Source: a virus. From it: a DNA stretch of 64,000 nt. Numbering within the stretch: position 1 is the stretch's first letter; the number at the start of each line of letters is the position of its first letter. The position numbers and the translations under genes are program-made. The notes below the pieces were generated by a model. It searched no databases and was not told where the DNA came from. It saw only the letters and a list, made by a program, of their open reading frames with translations. The stretch lies in the IMG/VR virus record IMGVR_UViG_3300033145_000529, positions 84,198-148,197 of that record; one strand, 5' to 3'. Below, in pieces: positions 3,198 to 63,428 of the stretch.

Positions 3198-3442
3198 GAA
3201 CGATGGTCGTAAGTTTTGTTCTTCTTGTAATAGAGAGGTATCATTAGACTTATTTTCTGGTAATACCGCTTCGTGTAAAGATTGTAAGAATAAAAGAGGA
3301 TAGATTGATACCAGAAAAAGGTTATACTCAAGGTAACGTGGTTTGGTGTGTTTGGTGGGTTAACAGGATGAAGTTTGAAATGGATAGTGGTACGTTTTAT
3401 AGTAGAGTTCAATTGATTATGGAGCACAGATATGAGCAGTAA
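3163..3442 (+). pseudogene. broken HNH homing endonuclease
   Basis: The first frame (3163-3303) encodes a zinc ribbon, CSSCNREV..CKDCKNKRG, then stops. The +1 frame continues as DRLIPEKGYTQGNVVWCVWW and NRMKFEM to 3442, the usual C-terminal part of phage HNH nucleases. The two halves are one frameshift apart and the central HNH segment is missing. A decayed mobile endonuclease. Confidence 0.7.
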
Positions 3443-3836
3443 ACATAAAAGTCATAGCTTAGATAAGGAATGTCTTTGTCCAAAGTGTCATTTACGGTTC
3501 GTTTGTTTTACTGAGGAACGAGTGTTCTCTGACCCCATATATCAGGGGTTGTTTGAAGCATTGATGGCTCAAGGGAAGTCTAGGGAAAAAGCTCTTGACG
3601 AAGTGACGGCTGAAATTAAGTTTAGGATGAATAACCCTATCGAAATAGGTGGTGGAAGTAATGGTACAATGTACCCACTTCCAACTACAATACCAGCTAT
3701 CACACCAAATATTCAACCAGATGTACAACCTTGGATAGTGATTTCCGAGTATTCTGATACTGTTAATGACAAAGGAGAAGTGCAGGTGAATTATACTATG
3801 TATGATGGGAAGGAAGTTAGCTGGTTATGCAAATAA
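3432..3836 (+). CDS. CRF-tag protein, 134 aa
   Basis: The N-terminal region carries CPKCHLRFVCFT (Cys16, 19, 25), the first instance of the C-x2-C-x2-RF-x-C-[YFW]-T element found in 25 proteins of this window. The rest has a helical segment and a Pro/Thr-rich linker before a short beta-like C-terminus. It overlaps the downstream polymerase gene by 10 bases. No family recognised beyond the tag, whose three cysteines suggest Zn or Fe-S binding. Confidence 0.75.
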   Translation: MSSKHKSHSLDKECLCPKCHLRFVCFTEERVFSDPIYQGLFEALMAQGKSREKALDEVTAEIKFRMNNPIEIGGGSNGTMYPLPTTIPAITPNIQPDVQPWIVISEYSDTVNDKGEVQVNYTMYDGKEVSWLCK

Positions 3837-27665: not shown

Positions 27666-27743
27666 GCTGGTGTAGCCCAATAAGGTAGAGGCAACAGCCT
27701 TAGAAGCTGTTCAGTGAGAGTCCGAATCTCTCCACCAGTACCA
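27666..27743 (+). tRNA. tRNA-Leu(TAG)
   Basis: Acceptor GCTGGTG/CACCAGT, anticodon loop CTTAGAA, discriminator A, encoded CCA. The variable region is only 5 bases, whereas bacterial Leu tRNAs normally have a long arm. Confidence 0.82.
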
Positions 27744-27755
27744 AAAGAGAATAAG

Positions 27756-28145
27756 ATGTATTTATACACGACAACTGACAATAGAACGATGAAAAGACAC
27801 TGGCATTTTGGTGGGAGAGAGTGTGATGGGTGTCAATATAGGTTTGAATGCTTTACTAGTAATAGAATCCATATTAAACTTGTGAAGGTGGATGTTACAG
27901 AGATACCTCACCTTTACCAACAGTGTGATAGATTCAAAGCGGAATTCCATTTACCAAAGTGTTTAAGACTTGGACTCTATAAACAAATAGCGGATTGTGG
28001 TTTTTGGAGTAGGAGTTACAGACAAAATTTCGGTGATGGATTCAAACTAGGAGCAATAATTGAAGAAGAAGATGAATATATTGATATAGAACGTGCGTGG
28101 GTGAAGTTTCCAGTTACTCTGTTTATAACTGGTACAATGAGATAA
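27756..28145 (+). CDS. CRF-tag protein, 129 aa
   Basis: ATG 27756 follows the tRNA-Leu CCA by 12 bases with AAGAGA before it. The CRF tag CDGCQYRFECFT (Cys23, 26, 32) is N-terminal. The C-terminal 80 residues (CDRFKAEFHLPKCLRLGLYK, WVKFPVTLFITG) look like a beta-rich domain. It ends 1 base before tRNA-Asp. Confidence 0.75.
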   Translation: MYLYTTTDNRTMKRHWHFGGRECDGCQYRFECFTSNRIHIKLVKVDVTEIPHLYQQCDRFKAEFHLPKCLRLGLYKQIADCGFWSRSYRQNFGDGFKLGAIIEEEDEYIDIERAWVKFPVTLFITGTMR

Positions 28146-35593: not shown

Positions 35594-35860
35594 ATGGAAT
35601 TAAAAGTTTGCGAAACTAAAAAACGTTCTCTAGTAAAGGCAATATCGTTTAGGATTATTGAAGTTGCTATTGATACGCTTATACTTTCTTTCTTTATTCC
35701 CGTACCAATAGCCTTTGTATTGGCAATGGCTGTTGAGGGAATTTGTTTCGCTTTACATTTTGCGTTTGAGAGAGTCTGGAATAAAATAGATTATGGGAGA
35801 CACATATACAAACGCAAAAATAAGCAAACTAAATGGATGTTATATAAGCAGACTGAGTGA
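35594..35860 (+). CDS. DUF2061-like membrane protein, 88 aa
   Basis: KKRSLVKAISFRIIEVAIDT, a second helix VPIAFVLAMAVEGICFALHF, and FERVWNKIDYG match the DUF2061 pattern (K-x-xSWR-x-x-D; two helices; HERVWN-x-I-x-WG). Function unknown. Confidence 0.7.
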   Translation: MELKVCETKKRSLVKAISFRIIEVAIDTLILSFFIPVPIAFVLAMAVEGICFALHFAFERVWNKIDYGRHIYKRKNKQTKWMLYKQTE

Positions 35861-35867
35861 ACGGCTT

Positions 35868-36113
35868 ATGGGTCTGCTTATGATATTAGAAATAGAATTA
35901 TCGTGGGGCAAGAGATTGGCATTTAATACATGGGGCGTAGAGACTGCTAGTTTTATTTGTGAAGGTGAAAGAAAGTGTAGTGATTGTGAGTTTCGTTTTG
36001 CTTGCTATACCACCAACACCGTAATTAAGATTAAACGTGAGTTCACCGATTATCATAGTGCGATAAAATATAGAAACAACCTTAAAAAAAGGTTTAAGTG
36101 CCGAGTAGTCTAG
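35868..36113 (+). CDS. CRF-tag protein, about 81 aa
   Basis: CSDCEFRFACYT (Cys37, 40, 46) with basic residues after it (IKIKREF). I use ATG 35868, after the upstream stop; 35880 is possible. Its last codons and stop fall in tRNA-Gln. Confidence 0.65.
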   Translation: MGLLMILEIELSWGKRLAFNTWGVETASFICEGERKCSDCEFRFACYTTNTVIKIKREFTDYHSAIKYRNNLKKRFKCRVV

Positions 36114-41337: not shown

Positions 41338-41742
41338 TTACCTTCTTGTCGTATAACACTTAAATCGTGCATCACACTTCTCACAGTGTTCTGTAGGGAA
41401 CTTTCCATAGCTCCAACAAACCTTAAATGGATTACCACACGTTGAGCAGGTGGGATACTTTCTAACTTCACCCATGTTGTATATAGAAACATCACAAGTA
41501 GGACAATACCATACTATCTTCTTCTGCTCACCAATGTTTCCTTTTATACCAATGAAGTCAAGCCCAAAAGGAGTATTGTTCCACCACAATCCGCAACCCG
41601 CACACTTCACATTAACGATTAGTCCACCGCTTAGACGACCCTCGTAGAACTTTTTACTACCGCAGTTCAGACAAGCTAGTTCCTCTGCTGGCATCTTTTC
41701 CGTGTCAATTATTCTACGTTTTCTTTTTAAGAAGTCAAACAT
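41338..41742 (-). CDS. double zinc-ribbon with C-terminal CRF tag, 134 aa
   Basis: CLNCGSKKF..CAGCGLWW, CPTCDVSI..CSTCGNPF, then CEKCDARFKCYTTRR (Cys120, 123, 129) at the very end. Like the glycosylase at 50514, the tag closes the chain. Confidence 0.75.
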   Translation of the reverse strand: MFDFLKRKRRIIDTEKMPAEELACLNCGSKKFYEGRLSGGLIVNVKCAGCGLWWNNTPFGLDFIGIKGNIGEQKKIVWYCPTCDVSIYNMGEVRKYPTCSTCGNPFKVCWSYGKFPTEHCEKCDARFKCYTTRR

Positions 41743-45372: not shown

Positions 45373-45558
45373 TTATTTACTTCTAAGTGTATATCTTGAC
45401 TCACTACTATGCTGTCCCATAGAAATCCGCATCCTCGCTCCACCTCTACTTGCCCAACATCTAAAACGCTTGTCACACTTGTTACACTTTTCTTCATCTA
45501 ATCTATGGGCTACATCATAATCAACCTCAATTATTGGTAATTCCGTCTGGTTCATCAA
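45373..45558 (-). CDS. CRF-tag protein, 61 aa
   Basis: CNKCDKRFRCWAS (Cys25, 28, 34; A in place of T) with a basic, Ser-rich tail. Overlaps the next tag gene by 32 bases. Small, like 22149. Confidence 0.7.
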   Translation of the reverse strand: MMNQTELPIIEVDYDVAHRLDEEKCNKCDKRFRCWASRGGARMRISMGQHSSESRYTLRSK

Positions 45559-45760
45559 ATTTTACCTGTATATCTTTTAATATATCACTTAGTTTAGTAA
45601 CTTCAGCCGAAGACACCCTTGCATCATTCGTTTTAATGCGTTCAGTAAAACATTGAAACCTATACTTACAAGCATTGCAACTTTGTGGTGCGGTTTTTAT
45701 TTTGTCGCATTGCTTTATAACAAGCTCTTTTCCATCCCAATTGAACTCTAATTTACTCAC
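45527..45760 (-). CDS. CRF-tag protein, 77 aa, probably leaderless
   Basis: CNACKYRFQCFTE (Cys28, 31, 37). The GTG start is 7 bases after the -10 of P9, at the expected +1, as for 31017. A short helix follows the tag (SSAEVTKLSDILKDIQVKFD). Confidence 0.72.
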   Translation of the reverse strand: MSKLEFNWDGKELVIKQCDKIKTAPQSCNACKYRFQCFTERIKTNDARVSSAEVTKLSDILKDIQVKFDEPDGITNN

Positions 45761-46177: not shown

Positions 46178-46585
46178 TTATTCCTTTTCTATGTAATCTC
46201 GAAAAGCTCCAAAATCTATAAACTTATCTCGAAGCTCTTTAGCAACGGCTTCCGTATCCATTCCCACTTTCTTCAAGAGATAATCAGTGAGGTCATAAGG
46301 ACTGACAGTAGTAAAGGTGCAACAAGGGCAATGCTTCGCAAGTATTTCATGGATTGCATCACAGTAGTCATCGGTATCTTCGCTACCCTCTGCCAGTTTG
46401 TTTAACATTTCCTCAAGTTCTTCCCCATTGATAGCGTGGTCTTTACAGAATATATGACCATTTTCACACTTATACATTTCTGCTTCCTCTAACCCAACAT
46501 CCCAACCAGATACAGTCTCCGCACAGACCTCACAGATAAAGGAAGTTGAACTGCTGTTACTGATAAATCCTTTTCTTATTTTCAT
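46178..46585 (-). CDS. SNSSS protein 1 with zinc site, 135 aa
   Basis: MKIRKGFISNSSSTSFIC starts the protein: the shared N-terminal block. It continues CEVC, CENGHIFCKDH, CPCC, a RING- or treble-clef-like zinc pattern. One of five genes with this start. Confidence 0.75.
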   Translation of the reverse strand: MKIRKGFISNSSSTSFICEVCAETVSGWDVGLEEAEMYKCENGHIFCKDHAINGEELEEMLNKLAEGSEDTDDYCDAIHEILAKHCPCCTFTTVSPYDLTDYLLKKVGMDTEAVAKELRDKFIDFGAFRDYIEKE

Positions 46586-46594
46586 CTTCTCTCC

Positions 46595-46894
46595 TTATCC
46601 ATTGTACCAAGCTTGTGAGTGTGTGTTACACACTACATCTGTCCCAAATATCTCAATAAGATTGCGTCTTATAGTTTCCCTAAACTCTCGACCAGTTTCG
46701 TCATCCAGAATAGCGTCCCAACTCCTCCCAACATACCTTTGCTCATCCAAATCTGGTGCGTATTCAATGATGAGGTCAGCATTGCGTATCTTTTGCTCAA
46801 TTTCCTCAGTAATGTCTGCCTTCTCCACTTGAATACCATAAAGCAAAAAACTTTCTGAGGAACTATTACTAACAAATCCTATTCTTACTTTCAC
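46595..46894 (-). CDS. SNSSS protein 2, 99 aa
   Basis: GTG start after AGGAGG. MKVRIGFVSNSSSESFLL, then an acidic region. No other motif. The block is the only part shared with neighbours. Confidence 0.75.
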   Translation of the reverse strand: MKVRIGFVSNSSSESFLLYGIQVEKADITEEIEQKIRNADLIIEYAPDLDEQRYVGRSWDAILDDETGREFRETIRRNLIEIFGTDVVCNTHSQAWYNG

Positions 46895-46903
46895 TTCATC
46901 CTC

Positions 46904-47455
46904 CTAATGACAGCTTATTTGTTTGTGGGGAAGATTATTGAATATCCCCCCATGTTCTAGCACAGAGAAATAATCTCTATCATCTCCATATCTAAATATG
47001 TAAATTTTCTGCCCTTTAAATTCTTTTAGTAACTCGTCCACGACTACCTGTGTGTGTTCATCACAAGCTTTAGAGTATGCTTTCCAATCGGTCTGCTCTC
47101 TAACTCTAGCTGTAATAATAGTTTTGTTATCATATTCTAGCTCGGTAATGTGATGTGGTATTATCTTGAAATCATCGTAATTTGGTTGTCCGCTCAACCA
47201 ACCACCCCTGACAGCATCATTAACTCTATTTAGCATTGTTGTGTGCTTCCACCGTTTTTGTGGTTTTATATCCCCCCACACTGTCTGTGCAATCTTCTTC
47301 GTTTCAGTTTTGCCATCATCATAAGGATTGCCCAGAAATGGATGACCATTAAACATCATTTCATGCACATCTTTGATGCTCTTTGGTTCACGTGGAAAAG
47401 CCACCACAAACATAGAGCTAGAACTATTACTTACAAAACCTGTACGTATCTTCAC
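46904..47455 (-). CDS. SNSSS protein 3, 183 aa
   Basis: MKIRTGFVSNSSSSMFVV, then an alpha/beta body (VDELLKEFKGQKIYIFRYGD). The largest member. Body not recognised. Confidence 0.75.
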   Translation of the reverse strand: MKIRTGFVSNSSSSMFVVAFPREPKSIKDVHEMMFNGHPFLGNPYDDGKTETKKIAQTVWGDIKPQKRWKHTTMLNRVNDAVRGGWLSGQPNYDDFKIIPHHITELEYDNKTIITARVREQTDWKAYSKACDEHTQVVVDELLKEFKGQKIYIFRYGDDRDYFSVLEHGGIFNNLPHKQISCH

Positions 47456-47509
47456 GTTGTTTCCTTACCAGAACTTTTCATTTCCTAGTGATATTTCTGA
47501 CCTTATCTT

Positions 47510-47692
47510 TCATTTTACCCCAATTACCATACACCTTTCGGGTAGTTGTAAACCTTTCTTCAGAGTTACTTCTAAATATTCCGACCCTTCTGTAGTATAG
47601 CAATGAAATTTAATAGGACATTTAGTACACTCTCCATTACACCTAACAGTAGGAAATCCCTGCATACTTATCCACCTTCTATATTTGCCCAT
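47510..47692 (-). CDS. CRF-tag protein inside the SNSSS cluster, 60 aa
   Basis: CNGECTKCPIKFHCYTTE (Cys22, 25, 31; KF variant). Flanked by SNSSS genes, so the two elements share a transcript. Confidence 0.72.
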   Translation of the reverse strand: MGKYRRWISMQGFPTVRCNGECTKCPIKFHCYTTEGSEYLEVTLKKGLQLPERCMVIGVK

Positions 47693-47693
47693 A

Positions 47694-47936
47694 TTACATG
47701 GTCATATCTGCTTGTAAGTTATGCTTTTCCAAAAACGCTGGTATTAGCTTATCGTGCATACTTAGATTACCATGAAAATGTTTCTCACTTTCATAGATAT
47801 AGGTATCACCGCTTTTTGCCTCAGCTTCATGATAAACAAACCGAAAATCTATCATCTGTTCTTTTGTCATACCATCTTTATCAAGGACAAAGGAACAGGA
47901 AGAAGAATTACTTACAAAACCACTTCTAATTTTCAT
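47694..47936 (-). CDS. SNSSS protein 4, 80 aa
   Basis: MKIRSGFVSNSSSCSFVL after GAGGTG. The rest is short and His-rich at one spot (EKHFHGNLSMHDK). Not recognised. Confidence 0.75.
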   Translation of the reverse strand: MKIRSGFVSNSSSCSFVLDKDGMTKEQMIDFRFVYHEAEAKSGDTYIYESEKHFHGNLSMHDKLIPAFLEKHNLQADMTM

Positions 47937-48346
47937 CTTTTTTCACCTCTATTAGTATAGCATATAAACCTCATTTGACATTCATTACACATTAAGTCAC
48001 ATTCTAAATCATCGGTCTCGGCAGTAGGTTGAATCCCATCACCCCATACTACGTTCTCAACACCAAGTTTTTCCATAAATGCTCCCATATCAAAATTGTC
48101 CATAGAAGTGCTACTGTATAGCACACCTTTTCTTATGGTAATATCCCAAGCATCACTTTTTGCGTATTCTATACCAAGCCTCTCACCCCATATCTGATGA
48201 TTGAGTATTTTACACAGTTGTTCGAGTGATAACTTGCGTAATGATACCACAAAAGACGAACTGCTACTATTACTTACAAATCCATTTCGTATCTTCATCG
48301 GTTTAAAATCTATTCCAAATTTTGCTTCTATTCGTTTTAGCTCCAT
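47933..48346 (-). CDS. SNSSS protein 5 with C-terminal CRF tag
   Basis: Carries both elements: MKIRNGFVSNSSSSSFVV and, near the C-terminus, CNECQMRFICYTNR. I set the start at ATG 48346, coupled to the small upstream frame; this puts 16 residues before the block. ATG 48298 would start at the block but lacks a binding site. Confidence 0.65.
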   Translation of the reverse strand: MELKRIEAKFGIDFKPMKIRNGFVSNSSSSSFVVSLRKLSLEQLCKILNHQIWGERLGIEYAKSDAWDITIRKGVLYSSTSMDNFDMGAFMEKLGVENVVWGDGIQPTAETDDLECDLMCNECQMRFICYTNRGEKR

Positions 48347-48435
48347 ATCGTATCTGACCACCTTGCCTGAAACCAATACCCTGAACCTCTTTTACTATAA
48401 TGGGCTATAATTTGCTCATTATTTGTTATCAACAT
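48337..48435 (-). CDS. possible 32-aa peptide
   Basis: MLITNNEQIIAHYSKRGSGY WFQARWSDTIWS-stop, whose stop overlaps ATG 48346. Possibly a leader peptide. Uncertain. Confidence 0.3.
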   Translation of the reverse strand: MLITNNEQIIAHYSKRGSGYWFQARWSDTIWS

Positions 48436-48482
48436 AGTGTTTCTTATAAATTTGGTAGTGATGCAAACTTATGTTCACATTG

Positions 48483-49562
48483 CTAACTATTTTTTATCCC
48501 TAAATCATATATTAAACATTTGCGACAACCGTTACAATCTATTTCTGCGAGACTTCTCTTTCTATATTTATCAAGCAATGGGTGATTCCAAATGTCTTTA
48601 ACAAAATCATTACAATTCAAGACATCTAATCCTTCAGACCACTCCCCAACACCTTCGGCAAAGCTACAGGGGAAATATTTTCCGTCTACGTTGATATAGC
48701 CAGAAAATAAACCAAATGACTCACAGGATTCTGACATAGTTTTGTATGTCTCAAAGTTTTTATCACCTTCAACTGCCTTCAGAAAAGCTGGTGCAGAACA
48801 ACTATCAAACCCAAACTTGCCACCAGTTTCCATTGCAGTTCCAATTAAATCCTTGAACCTTTTCATCGAATCGAGTTGATTCAAGTGATTCCTTTTACCT
48901 TTTGGTTTTAACCACAAGAATACTACTGCGTTCAAGCCTGCAAGTCGTGAGTCTATTACTTTGTCAAGGAGTGTAGTATAACAATCCATAAAAGTTTCTT
49001 TTGAAAGGAGAGAGTGTATATTTACCTGCTTCATTCCCTTATCTGAAAGCTCCTTAACAGCATTATAACAGGTATCTTTATCATACTTACTAACCGCAAC
49101 AGCTCCACACAGCTCCACTAACTTATCATACAAATCAGATGTCATTCGCTCACCGTTTATGGTAATATTTGGAATAACATTACTTTTTCTACAATACTCC
49201 ATCATCTTCCATAAGTTAGGATTACTGTCAATATCACCTATTCCGAATGCTACTTGTGTCAAGGTCGGTGGCATTTTGTCCAAAATAACCTTGAATGTCT
49301 CAAAGGACATGTTCTTACCCTTGTATGTACCATTACTTTTGTAGCACCAGGGGCACGCTCTAGAACAAATGGTACTTACCTCTATGTCCAATATCTCATT
49401 ACCGAATGGCGAATATTCGGGGTCATCTTTCTTGTTCTTCCCCCACCTAGCAAAGAAACCAGTATTCTTATCAAAATAAGAATTAAAATTTTCGGAACGA
49501 ACTATTTTTTCATCTACAGTATCAGTTACTAGCAACTCTTTTGCACCACCTAATGAACACAT
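48483..49562 (-). CDS. radical SAM/SPASM-like enzyme, 359 aa
   Basis: The CxxxCxxC cluster is CSRACPWC near residues 66-73. The C-terminal part has CSAPAF, CSFAEG and CNGCRKCLIYD, which recalls the SPASM or Twitch auxiliary-cluster domain. It acts on SAM and usually modifies peptides or proteins. It lies upstream of the SNSSS genes, so those, or CRF-tag proteins, are possible substrates (inference). Confidence 0.88.
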   Translation of the reverse strand: MCSLGGAKELLVTDTVDEKIVRSENFNSYFDKNTGFFARWGKNKKDDPEYSPFGNEILDIEVSTICSRACPWCYKSNGTYKGKNMSFETFKVILDKMPPTLTQVAFGIGDIDSNPNLWKMMEYCRKSNVIPNITINGERMTSDLYDKLVELCGAVAVSKYDKDTCYNAVKELSDKGMKQVNIHSLLSKETFMDCYTTLLDKVIDSRLAGLNAVVFLWLKPKGKRNHLNQLDSMKRFKDLIGTAMETGGKFGFDSCSAPAFLKAVEGDKNFETYKTMSESCESFGLFSGYINVDGKYFPCSFAEGVGEWSEGLDVLNCNDFVKDIWNHPLLDKYRKRSLAEIDCNGCRKCLIYDLGIKNS

Positions 49563-50513: not shown

Positions 50514-51245
50514 TCATCTAAAGCAATAGAACCTTTGCTTACAATTTTTACACTTATCAGAACTTCCCCACCACCTCTGACAAGCTCTTTTCCTTTGCTC
50601 CAACTCAATTAAAATTGGTTGAAGATGTTCACTAAATTCAACAGGTGCATCAACAAGTCGTAACTGTTTATCTATATGTTTAATGCTTAATGCTTCCTTT
50701 ACCGTTTTCTCAATTTCATCCCTAATCAGTCTGCCCCGTTCAGTACCCGTACCTCCAGAATGTGCAATTGCCGCTGGATGGTATGTTACAATCACACTAT
50801 ACTTCTGTCGCCAAGTAAATTTAGTTCCTACAATATCTTTCATCGCAACCTTTGTATCACCACCCAAAGCAACGTAAGGTATCTTACCCATACAAACAAT
50901 GATTACTGGTTGAAGTGCCTCTACCTCAGCGTACAAGCGGTCATTACAGCATCGTATTTCTACATCAGTTGGTGTGCGGTTGTATGTTTTCCCATCCACT
51001 ACTTTAGTTGGTCTGCACGTAACAACATTTATATAGTTTCCATCTTCCCGTTTTGCACCTAAAGATTCAACGATTCGATTAAAGTCTTGACCTGCCACTC
51101 CAACCAAAGGTCTACCTTCTTGTGCTTCATGGTATCCAGGAGCCTCTGCTAAAAACAATACCTTTGAGTCGTGTAATTCAGACGGTACATAAACATTATT
51201 TTTTAGTGGGCACTCTTCACATTTACCTGATGTAGCTTTTATCAT
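50514..51245 (-). CDS. family-4-type uracil-DNA glycosylase with C-terminal CRF tag
   Basis: Cys9 and Cys12 (CEECPL) plus Cys in TCRPT and RCCND give the 4Fe-4S of family 4. FLAEAPGYHEAQEGRPLVGV AG is the active-site region and TYHPAA the H-P motif. It removes uracil from DNA. After about residue 200 an extra tail ends CKNCKQRFYCFR: the CRF tag (Cys232, 235, 241), not a part of such enzymes. Evidence that the tag is a module. Confidence 0.92.
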   Translation of the reverse strand: MIKATSGKCEECPLKNNVYVPSELHDSKVLFLAEAPGYHEAQEGRPLVGVAGQDFNRIVESLGAKREDGNYINVVTCRPTKVVDGKTYNRTPTDVEIRCCNDRLYAEVEALQPVIIVCMGKIPYVALGGDTKVAMKDIVGTKFTWRQKYSVIVTYHPAAIAHSGGTGTERGRLIRDEIEKTVKEALSIKHIDKQLRLVDAPVEFSEHLQPILIELEQRKRACQRWWGSSDKCKNCKQRFYCFR

Positions 51246-60031: not shown

Positions 60032-60157
60032 CTATATTATAACACATGCCGTTTTGTAAGTCAAGCTCCACATACCGCCGCACAAAACCACCTGCTGTTT
60101 TACTCGTTCATTCTTATGCTCTACTTTCCATTGCTTGTTATCAAATTTCAAATACAT
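60032..60157 (-). CDS. small protein overlapping P12, 41 aa
   Basis: MYLKFDNKQWKVEHKNERVK QQVVLCGGMWSL then codons that overlap P12. ATG overlaps the upstream stop by one base. Plausible. Confidence 0.4.
   Translation of the reverse strand: MYLKFDNKQWKVEHKNERVKQQVVLCGGMWSLTYKTACVII
60036..60064 (-). promoter_or_regulatory. sigma70-type promoter P12
   Basis: Minus strand: TTGACT, 17-base spacer ending GGCATGTGT, TATAAT. An ATG 7 bases after the -10 opens a 12-codon frame only. Confidence 0.8.
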
Positions 60158-60813
60158 TATTCCCAAAAAGAATTATTCCCCCAACTACCATACTTTGGTT
60201 TTGGCTCAGGTGCTCCTGTATAACACTTAAATCGTAAGTCACAGTTATTACATTTCTCGCTTTGTTTATTGGTTTCGTAGCAGTATTTTATAGCGAGTGC
60301 CTCGTTCACAACTCGTTCTGGTCTGTCAAATTCCCAATGAGCTTGCTCAACAAAGACCTCATTATCCTTGACAACCAAATTCCACCTATCCTCGTTGTCC
60401 TCACCCTGTGCTTCAATCTCTCCATCACAAATATGCCCCTTTAAGAAAGCAAACTGTTTTGGAAATCTGGTTTTAGCAACAGGGTCAGGTTTGAGGAAAT
60501 TTTGAATAATATACCACATCCATTCGGCTGAACAATAGAACTTCTCAGCTCCATCCCACTCAATATACTTGCCATCTTCGGTTGGTGTCCACTGACACCA
60601 CAAACCTGGTTGTTCAGGGGACGAGGTGTTACAGTCTATTATGTCGGGGTCTTCACCTTGCCCTGCCACACCAGTACCGTCAACGAAATATTCCCCATTT
60701 TTACGCAACATTCTCCTAGTCTTGGAGAACTTCTGTAAATACTCTATCTCCTTGCTGTTCAAGGTTGGTTCAATAGCTATTTCACCCCTAAAGTTTGTTG
60801 TGTATCCCATCAC
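60157..60813 (-). CDS. known-family protein with C-terminal CRF tag, 218 aa
   Basis: GYTTNFRGEIAIEPTLNSKE, GLWCQWTPTEDGKYIEWDGA EKFY, GEIEAQGEDNEDRWNLVVKD N match a family I recall in actinobacteria and phages (unknown role). The end adds CNNCDLRFKCYT (Cys188, 191, 197), absent from the relatives I remember. Confidence 0.75.
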   Translation of the reverse strand: MMGYTTNFRGEIAIEPTLNSKEIEYLQKFSKTRRMLRKNGEYFVDGTGVAGQGEDPDIIDCNTSSPEQPGLWCQWTPTEDGKYIEWDGAEKFYCSAEWMWYIIQNFLKPDPVAKTRFPKQFAFLKGHICDGEIEAQGEDNEDRWNLVVKDNEVFVEQAHWEFDRPERVVNEALAIKYCYETNKQSEKCNNCDLRFKCYTGAPEPKPKYGSWGNNSFWE

Positions 60814-61687: not shown

Positions 61688-61995
61688 TTTTCTTCCCTCA
61701 CAAAGTTTTCGTCTATTGGTACTCCCTCTCCATCCTTTCCAACCTTGAAGCCATAATTGAATTGTTTCTGCTTCATATAAAGAAGTAACTCTGTTTCATC
61801 ATCGTAGGAAATAACCTCAAGTAGAGTATCACTGTCAAGTAATGCTAATTTATTGTCGGGGTATTCTTCATATAATACTCTTGCCAACGTTAATCCCAAG
61901 AATACAGACTCCGTTAATATAGGTAGAATACCATATTGTTGGCAAACAAACAGAAGTTCTGAGATATTTGTCGCACATTTAAGTGTTCTTATCAT
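61684..61995 (-). CDS. hypothetical protein, 103 aa
   Basis: SELLFVCQQYGILPILTESV FLGLTLARVLY, DSDTLLEVISYDDETELLLY. Not recognised. Overlaps both neighbours. Confidence 0.6.
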   Translation of the reverse strand: MIRTLKCATNISELLFVCQQYGILPILTESVFLGLTLARVLYEEYPDNKLALLDSDTLLEVISYDDETELLLYMKQKQFNYGFKVGKDGEGVPIDENFVREEK

Positions 61996-63428
61996 TATCT
62001 ATCTTTATAAATTCCAGCTTCACGTAACTTGTTCACATCGAACTCGGCTTCACGCTGTGTCCAGCAAATAAACCGCATTTTACAAGCATCACATTGTTCA
62101 GGGTAGTTTTTGCACATTATGGGTATCTTTTGTGTACCCCTTCCATAGACATCACTAGTTTCTTCAACCGCCATAATCAGCCGACCCTGACCATTAACAG
62201 TCAAACCCTCATCCCGCAGAGCTATGATATGTTTGCACGTTCTGTTTCTACGAGTATTAAATATCCAAGATGGACAATTGTGAACATAGGCATTAGAAAT
62301 TATATAGTGTGGTTTATCATTGACCTCACAATTATAAACGTTTCCAATATATTTGTAACGTTCAATAGACCTAATAGATGTTGCAATCCAATCAGGCATA
62401 GAGTAATAATGTGTATTTGCCCCCTTTATTGCAAGACTACCACAATATTGAACTTTTGCGTTGCCAGCTCTTCCATTTATAATATAAGTATTGCGACTGT
62501 TACTTAAACACAAGGTATACAACTTGCCAAATCTTGCAGCAAGTAACTGAATTTGTAACGCTAGTGTCCTACTAGTAGTAGAAAACCTAAAACCAGAATT
62601 TGACCCATCCCCTTTAAGATATGCTTCTAAAAATGAGGTAGCTAATAATTCCTCTCCCATCAATATCCAATTAGGTATTTTCTTGTTCTCTGCACCACGA
62701 CCAAAGTGGTCACTCATAAATCGTGCTAATGGTTCATTGTGTATTGTTAAACGATAGCAGTTACCTACAACTTCGTCTGAAGTGCCAATACCCATAGAGT
62801 TGACATAAGATTGTACTTGTAAAGCATCACTTCTATCTTTATTGTTATTAAAATCTAGCGTAAACCCATTGCTATTTTTACTTCCCTCAGCAACATACCA
62901 ACCACACAACATAGCAAAATCCTGCGATAGTTTTATTTGTCGTGTACCACGATTCCGCCACTCTGGTGCTTTTACATACTTTGTCAAATCAAACATTTTG
63001 ACCACGTGTGTAGTTTTAAGTCGTGGTATCAAAAGATAATTACTTTTCTTCCTATTATGATACTCCAATTGTCCAGAAAGCTTCCACAATGGCTCGCTAA
63101 ATCTGTAGCCATTTCCATATCTATAATGTTCTACCACAAAAAATGGGTGTTCACATGTACAGCTAATTGGCAACAACCCAGTGGCTTTTATGCAAAGCAA
63201 ATCCTCATTTACTTGTCGTGTTAATACTTGACTTATTATATCTGTTTTAATATTGACTACGTTATCCCCGACAACTAAATCTTCAATGTTCTTGTTTGCC
63301 CCAAGGATAAATGTACCTTCTGGAAAACAATTACAACTAAACATACCATGTTCATCTACTTTAATAGTATAGTGCTTGTTGGGATTAGATTGAGACGAAA
63401 TTTCTGCAACAAAATTATACTGTTTCAT
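61995..63428 (-). CDS. SWIM-domain CRF-tag protein split by an intein, 477 aa
   Basis: N-extein residues 1-33 end FSCN. The intein is about residues 34-384: it starts CFPEGTFILG, has HPFFVVEHY (block B His), the endonuclease motifs LCGWYVAEGSK and LEAYLKGDGS, and ends AYVHN. C-extein starts CPSWIF..RTCKHI. Joining gives FSCNCPSWIF and C-x-C..C-x-H, a complete SWIM zinc finger. The C-extein carries the CRF tag CDACKMRFICWT. Mature protein about 126 aa. Confidence 0.88.
   Translation of the reverse strand: MKQYNFVAEISSQSNPNKHYTIKVDEHGMFSCNCFPEGTFILGANKNIEDLVVGDNVVNIKTDIISQVLTRQVNEDLLCIKATGLLPISCTCEHPFFVVEHYRYGNGYRFSEPLWKLSGQLEYHNRKKSNYLLIPRLKTTHVVKMFDLTKYVKAPEWRNRGTRQIKLSQDFAMLCGWYVAEGSKNSNGFTLDFNNNKDRSDALQVQSYVNSMGIGTSDEVVGNCYRLTIHNEPLARFMSDHFGRGAENKKIPNWILMGEELLATSFLEAYLKGDGSNSGFRFSTTSRTLALQIQLLAARFGKLYTLCLSNSRNTYIINGRAGNAKVQYCGSLAIKGANTHYYSMPDWIATSIRSIERYKYIGNVYNCEVNDKPHYIISNAYVHNCPSWIFNTRRNRTCKHIIALRDEGLTVNGQGRLIMAVEETSDVYGRGTQKIPIMCKNYPEQCDACKMRFICWTQREAEFDVNKLREAGIYKDR

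Follow-up and report, generated by a model that had tools for sequence, protein, structure and literature searches.

Why do five small viral proteins, most of them with bodies of distinct families, begin with the same short peptide beside a single radical S-adenosylmethionine (SAM) gene? We addressed this question in a 64,000-nucleotide stretch of viral DNA (positions 84,198 to 148,197 of IMG/VR record IMGVR_UViG_3300033145_000529; hereafter, the window), in which positions 46178-49562 encode five proteins with a common SNSSS-containing N-terminal block and, next to them, a radical SAM enzyme. Based on the sequence comparisons described below, the five proteins and the enzyme are best read as one two-component, previously undescribed radical-SAM modification system, and the block is quite probably the site that the enzyme recognises or modifies.

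Five SNSSS genes and a radical SAM gene in one run

A preliminary description of this DNA had listed five open reading frames (ORFs) with SNSSS starts, and we confirmed each of them on the minus strand, along with the block it gave, an 18-residue segment that opens with MK(I/V)RxGF(V/I)SNSSSxxF. The radical SAM gene (48483-49562, minus strand; 359 residues, phrog_7293) lies directly upstream of them, as also described. Reading downstream from the enzyme on the same strand, SNSSS protein 5 (MKIRNGFVSNSSSSSFVV..., 47933-48301) has a body of the DNFD family with a CxxCxxRFxC tail at its end, and protein 4 (MKIRSGFVSNSSSCSFVL..., 47694-47936; ATG start, 80 residues), whose gene overlaps that of protein 5 by 4 bases, has a body remotely related to the DNFD family. 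After an intervening 60-residue ORF without the block (47510-47692, minus strand), a probable passenger that carries the CxxCxx[RK]FxC motif, follow protein 3 (MKIRTGFVSNSSSSMFVV..., 46904-47455; GTG start, 183 residues, phrog_7397), protein 2 (MKVRIGFVSNSSSESFLL..., 46595-46894; GTG start, 99 residues), which resembles the YxGRSW...DDETG body family, and protein 1 (MKIRKGFISNSSSTSFIC..., 46178-46585; ATG start, 135 residues), which has a Cys/His zinc-finger-like body (CEVC...CENGHIFCKDH). The SNSSS genes and the enzyme thus form one same-strand run with short gaps or small overlaps. The mechanical ORF listing starts protein 5 at TTG 48376; ATG 48301, which places the block at residue 1, is more likely the true start because of the analogy with the rest of the family.

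A degenerate DNA pattern for GF[VI]SNSSS matched five times in the window compared to 0.01 expected from dinucleotide shuffles, and the whole 148-kb record held no further match. Synonymous codons of the block vary among the five copies, and therefore the block is not a copied DNA repeat but a peptide under selection. Profile searches against PHROG matched protein 3 to phrog_7397 over its full length, and the other four proteins matched this profile at the first 18-23 positions only, as expected with a shared block. The bodies had been called unrelated, which holds for distinct families among them but not for proteins 4 and 5, whose families are related at the profile level (hhalign E 9.6e-8). 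Both phrog_7293 and phrog_7397 are annotated as being of unknown function, with no annotated link between them.

Co-occurrence of enzyme and block in viruses

Enzyme and block were searched for from both sides, using DNA patterns for the block (tblastn with a 22-residue block gave nothing in the phage collection, probably due to low-complexity filtering). A strict-pattern scan of viral contigs found at least 120 motif-bearing stretches, with up to seven copies per stretch and 46 records behind them (records W01-W03, selected by other means, were left out of this count). The phrog_7293 enzyme is encoded in 39 of these 46 records, among the matches listed. From the other side, 28 viral enzymes, taken mostly from motif-bearing loci, were aligned and used as a query, and this search returned 80 loci irrespective of whether the motif was there. 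Of these, 73/80 have strict SNSSS frames within about 10 kb of the enzyme, with up to 11 block proteins per locus; every frame is on the enzyme strand (291/291), and reversed or shuffled DNA gave none. A median of 301 bases separates the enzyme from its nearest motif gene, and the two are within 1 kb of each other in 57 loci. Among the seven enzyme loci that lack a strict motif nearby, L203 has an altered block (QSFVANSSSSSF), and the records of L232 and L233 contain copies at other places. We saw no third conserved component: apart from the pair, no gene family was shared by more than 13 of these 80 loci.

As controls, we used 50 RecA-selected virus records (30-400 kb), which replaced a uracil-glycosylase-selected set that had yielded only 5 loci; these contained the enzyme in 0/50 and the motif in 0/50. 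Compared to these controls, the two counts (39/46 among the matches listed, and 73/80) are the opposite of SNSSS proteins lying mostly in genomes with no radical SAM gene nearby, the outcome that the preliminary description had named as contrary to its proposal of the block as a recognition or modification site. They show the pattern used to recognise systems that make ribosomally synthesised and post-translationally modified peptides (RiPPs), that is, a conserved putative substrate sequence co-occurring with an enzyme. The same description had mentioned SNSSS starts in other phages, and the viral contig scan bears this out; the block also occurs in bacteria, in operons with STAND NTPases.

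A bacterial sister pair in STAND operons

The bacterial version of the block is GFVTNSSST, and its gene abuts the enzyme gene, the gene ends often overlapping. A strict motif scan of 84,980 bacterial species genomes gave 33 stretches. An enzyme homologue adjoins the motif gene in 25 of them, several others end at a contig or locus edge, and the Veillonella parvula chromosome (L380), where the enzyme is present in the flank beside the motif gene, adds to this number. When the search was widened to 391 genomes of a single class, five had matches, and pairs with altered blocks also emerged; the altered bacterial blocks MKIRTDFVTNSSSSSF and MKVRLDYVTNSSSVSY also adjoin the enzyme.

In 16 bacterial loci, the gene order is a large protein, a small protein of about 130 residues, the TNSSST protein and the enzyme (the DNA first examined stops short of the enzyme in L126 and L152). 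The large protein has a NACHT/STAND region and an exchangeable N-terminus, which is trypsin-like, SMEK or a membrane segment. Three of four NTPases tested matched Avs2 profiles (E 1e-15 to 6e-25), along with SMEK, weak trypsin and NACHT matches, so that the operon combines an Avs-homologous STAND NTPase with an effector N-terminus, as Avs systems do. Operons with trypsin also have, upstream, an MBL protein with matches to LmuA and Avs1a. This is the nuclease-protease combination reported in PMC12799240, and it resembles the trypsin and MBL nuclease of Avs1 in the Avs/AVAST systems. The operon differs from these systems in its shorter NTPase (735-984 residues where complete, compared to about 1400-1600 for the Avs2 profiles) and in the two small proteins and the radical SAM enzyme that come after it. 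Judged by these homologies, there is good evidence that the bacterial operon is an immune system. In vWA-FtsH conflict systems, a radical SAM enzyme likewise has a predicted role in modifying a peptide effector from a separate gene (PMC7159879), but the core there is vWA/FtsH and not STAND.

The link between viral and bacterial proteins extends past the block: once the block is taken off, one phage body family is still homologous to the bacterial TNSSST protein (hmmsearch to 1e-12). Within the bacterial operon, the second small protein aligns end to end, weakly, with the TNSSST body (hhalign E 7.5e-5, probability 34%). The viral loci yielded no STAND homologue.

Several bacterial loci show other arrangements. 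Proteins of 276-423 residues that start with MKIR(T/K)DFVTNSSSS adjoin the enzyme outside STAND operons in L377 (G127:C43) and L378. Proteins of about 720 residues with a TNSSSTNF block at the start lie next to the enzyme in Fusibacter (L130:5265-7418), where the protein has no Pfam match, and in another Clostridia genome (L383). Two loci from deltaproteobacterial metagenome-assembled genomes (MAGs; L139 and L154) have three to four tandem TNSSST genes plus the enzyme, with no STAND gene in the DNA examined.

Features of the radical SAM enzyme

The window enzyme belongs to the radical SAM superfamily (PF04055: E 1e-7, 32.5 bits, above the cut-off of 29.5) and matches phrog_7293 at E 9e-91. Its core CxxxCxxC motif is C66/C70/C73, and a match just under the cut-off to SPASM (PF13186: E 7e-4, 20.2 bits versus 21.5) indicates a partial SPASM domain. 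Across the viral clade, C255 (in GFDSC), C280, C299 and C349 are invariant or nearly so, and the remaining SPASM cysteines are kept only partly. The viral enzymes therefore lack the full cysteine set for two auxiliary clusters, all of which is kept by the bacterial sister clade, but their four non-core cysteines would suffice for one. In the enzyme tree, the bacterial clade (17 rows, including all STAND-linked enzymes) and the viral clade (39 rows) each have SH-aLRT support of 100; the latter also contains contigs from Treponema, Spirochaetia and Izimaplasma MAGs, which are probably phage DNA.

Neither the window enzyme nor its bacterial sisters fall into a curated maturase family. Among curated NCBIfam RiPP maturase families, the window enzyme is above no cut-off (best 35.9 bits versus 380), and bacterial sister enzymes reach about 72 bits at best against equivalog cut-offs of 265 or more; the closest profiles of the latter include mycofactocin maturase, WgkB and GeoRSP. 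The bacterial sister enzyme also falls short of a full prokaryotic viperin match: it scored 51 bits over part of pVip and 47 against the NCBIfam cut-off of 180, and it has SPASM cysteines.

Some single copies are unusual. In a Spirochaetia MAG (L141:1-924), the segment upstream of a viral-clade radical SAM gene ends in ...VHNC where it abuts the cluster motif, which suggests an intein in the active site. The RB43 copy (NC_007023, about 92715-93864) has an apparent frameshift near the C-terminus, with two overlapping matches and internal stops, whereas the copies of phiEap-3 and of a putative RB16 record are open.

Conservation of the block and diversity of the bodies

In enzyme-selected loci, conservation of the block is high at K2 (98%), R4 (~100%), F7 (98%), N10, S11 and S12 (~100%), and V8, S9 and S15 (98-100%), with slightly lower values at G6 (94%) and F16 (95%). 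It ends after position 18, past which no residue is common to different body families. All four L203 proteins have the altered block. One viral lineage has Ala in place of S9, which is therefore not essential, and we downgraded a Ser9-based cyclophane (F-x-S, as in FxsB) as a candidate product, given the change of S9 to Ala in L203 and L067/L221.

The proteins behind the block are diverse: 481 distinct bodies, mostly of 80-390 residues, fall into 110 clusters, and most families are not detectably related. Profile comparison gave a small excess of weak links (8/120 family pairs below E 0.01 versus 0 in reversed controls). Blocks attached to different bodies in one genome were more similar to each other (0.784) than in a shuffled null (0.761, maximum 0.778), whereas those on the same body across genomes were at the null level (0.764). 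The block thus appears to track the genome rather than the body; the effect is small, and its direction is the one expected if a common partner meets the block in each genome. AlphaFold2 models of a bacterial TNSSST protein and of the window protein 46904-47455 had predicted local distance difference test (pLDDT) values of 89 and 88, respectively. In both, residues 1-10 are predicted to be disordered (mostly pLDDT <50), and residues 13-20 would form the first strand of an alpha/beta domain. Foldseek found no PDB match for either model at E <= 0.001, and none among viral models for the one compared.

Weighing the explanations

Known RiPP radical SAM/SPASM maturases (mycofactocin maturase, WgkB, PapB, GeoRSP) resemble the present enzyme in having a radical SAM core with C-terminal auxiliary-cluster cysteines and a gene beside small proteins that share a conserved stretch. 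The enzyme here differs in scoring far under every curated cut-off, and its putative substrates would be folded proteins that begin with the conserved stretch, many per enzyme and without a common core peptide. One alternative is a leader-core arrangement, in which the block would be the recognition leader only and the enzyme would modify residues of the body, the pattern of RiPPs whose variable cores follow one common leader. One block in front of many bodies does look like a shared-leader family, and Ser, Asp and Gly loops abound in several bodies, but the size of the bodies, their confident domain folds in both modelled cases and the lack of a common residue after position 18 speak against it, and the constraint on the block far exceeds what recognition alone usually needs; we consider this arrangement unlikely. 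It is even less likely that the enzyme makes a small molecule or has another target and that the SNSSS proteins are its binding partners or regulators. The viral enzymes seem to retain cysteines for one auxiliary cluster only, and the bacterial sister is weakly similar in profile to prokaryotic viperins, which act on nucleotides. On the other hand, the bacterial sisters are more similar to the peptide maturases named above, no other conserved partner gene accompanies the pair, and as many as 11 block proteins in a locus suit substrates better than subunits.

Two further explanations leave the enzyme as a bystander or the maker of an unrelated product, and both are highly improbable. T4 internal proteins are different small phage proteins with one common N-terminal capsid-targeting peptide, and clustered SNSSS proteins resemble them enough to suggest a tag that directs small proteins into the capsid for injection. 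However, the block differs in sequence from the T4 peptide, has no Glu site at which a T4-type prohead protease would cut, and has a near-universal link to a radical SAM enzyme; the presence of the same block outside phages, in bacterial STAND operons, makes a packaging role unlikely. The block might instead be purely structural, the first strand of one very divergent fold, as the placement of strand 1 in both models and the few profile links between body families would allow. Against this, the best-conserved residues (R4, F7, N10 and S11) lie within or border the predicted disordered part, the block tracks the genome and not the body, and a structural strand leaves the enzyme link unexplained.

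Several points weigh against the enzyme acting on the block. Seven of the 46 motif-bearing records have no phrog_7293 match among those listed; these are 20-162 kb long, two of them >100 kb, and may be incomplete sequences. Four enzyme-bearing fragments of 15-70 kb (L195, L200, L220 and L224) have no strict motif in the whole record, and in RB43 and phiEap-3 some 19-25 kb lie between the enzyme and motif genes, which shows that linkage need not be tight. The motif was a requirement of the first collection scans, and the block profile admitted only frames with a start codon placed five residues upstream and no more than four changes, so that positional invariance is partly imposed. Conservation at residues 12-18 may also be explained by strand 1 of the predicted fold. 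Both-way co-occurrence together with the independent bacterial two-gene units nevertheless makes the block as recognition or modification site the best inference. The SNSSS and TNSSST motif strings appear in no paper of the open literature searched, which leaves out most subscription papers, nor did we find there a description of a phage- or STAND-linked radical SAM pair; novelty of the enzyme-block pair is therefore provisional.

A proposed mechanism

If the enzyme acts on the block, the MKxRxGF(V/I)(S/T)NSSSxSF segment would be the part that it sees. The enzyme would bind the charged, disordered N-terminal tail of residues 1-11, probably through K2, R4 and G6-F7, and the near-invariant N10-S11-S12 core would be the likeliest site of radical reaction. 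We infer both the modification and the residue acted on; serine- or asparagine-centred oxidation, epimerisation and cross-linking would all fit, and the data favour no reaction type. The modified tail would remain ahead of a small folded domain, and one such tail on many different domains suggests a handle common to a set of effectors. In the bacterial STAND operons, the tagged protein is probably a sensor or bait, which suggests immune machinery as the reader of the handle. Host takeover or counter-defence is therefore the leading guess for the phage sets, held with low confidence and by analogy with the operon; a counter-defence role taken alone is possible but doubtful. A more specific arms-race scenario, in which modified TNSSST is the bait or sensor for the STAND NTPase and the phage enzyme with its identically modified SNSSS look-alikes would jam or misdirect immunity, is rather more doubtful.

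Other features of the window

A second short motif, CxxCxx[RK]FxC(Y/F/W)T, is found in 23 otherwise different ORFs of the window, often near the C-terminus (e.g., 61995-63428, 60157-60813, 50514-51245, 45527-45760, 41338-41742, 35793-36113, 27714-28145 and 3432-3836). The CxxCxx[RK]FxC motif is dense only in the window phage and its near relatives (14 ORFs in L162, 10 in L163 and 7 in L112) and absent from the controls. It looks like a proliferated metal-binding tag; as a component of the radical SAM system, it was rejected, being confined to near relatives of the window phage. The window also contains 27 tRNA genes on the plus strand (12080-35493), a large set for a phage.

Biological significance

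If the proposed reading is true, many large phages, Straboviridae isolates among them, share a radical SAM protein-modification system in which one tag precedes over 100 body clusters. Both its enzyme and its 18-residue target are defined, which makes it directly testable. The sister operon would connect radical SAM chemistry to STAND-type bacterial immunity, and this connection could explain why phages retain the pair.

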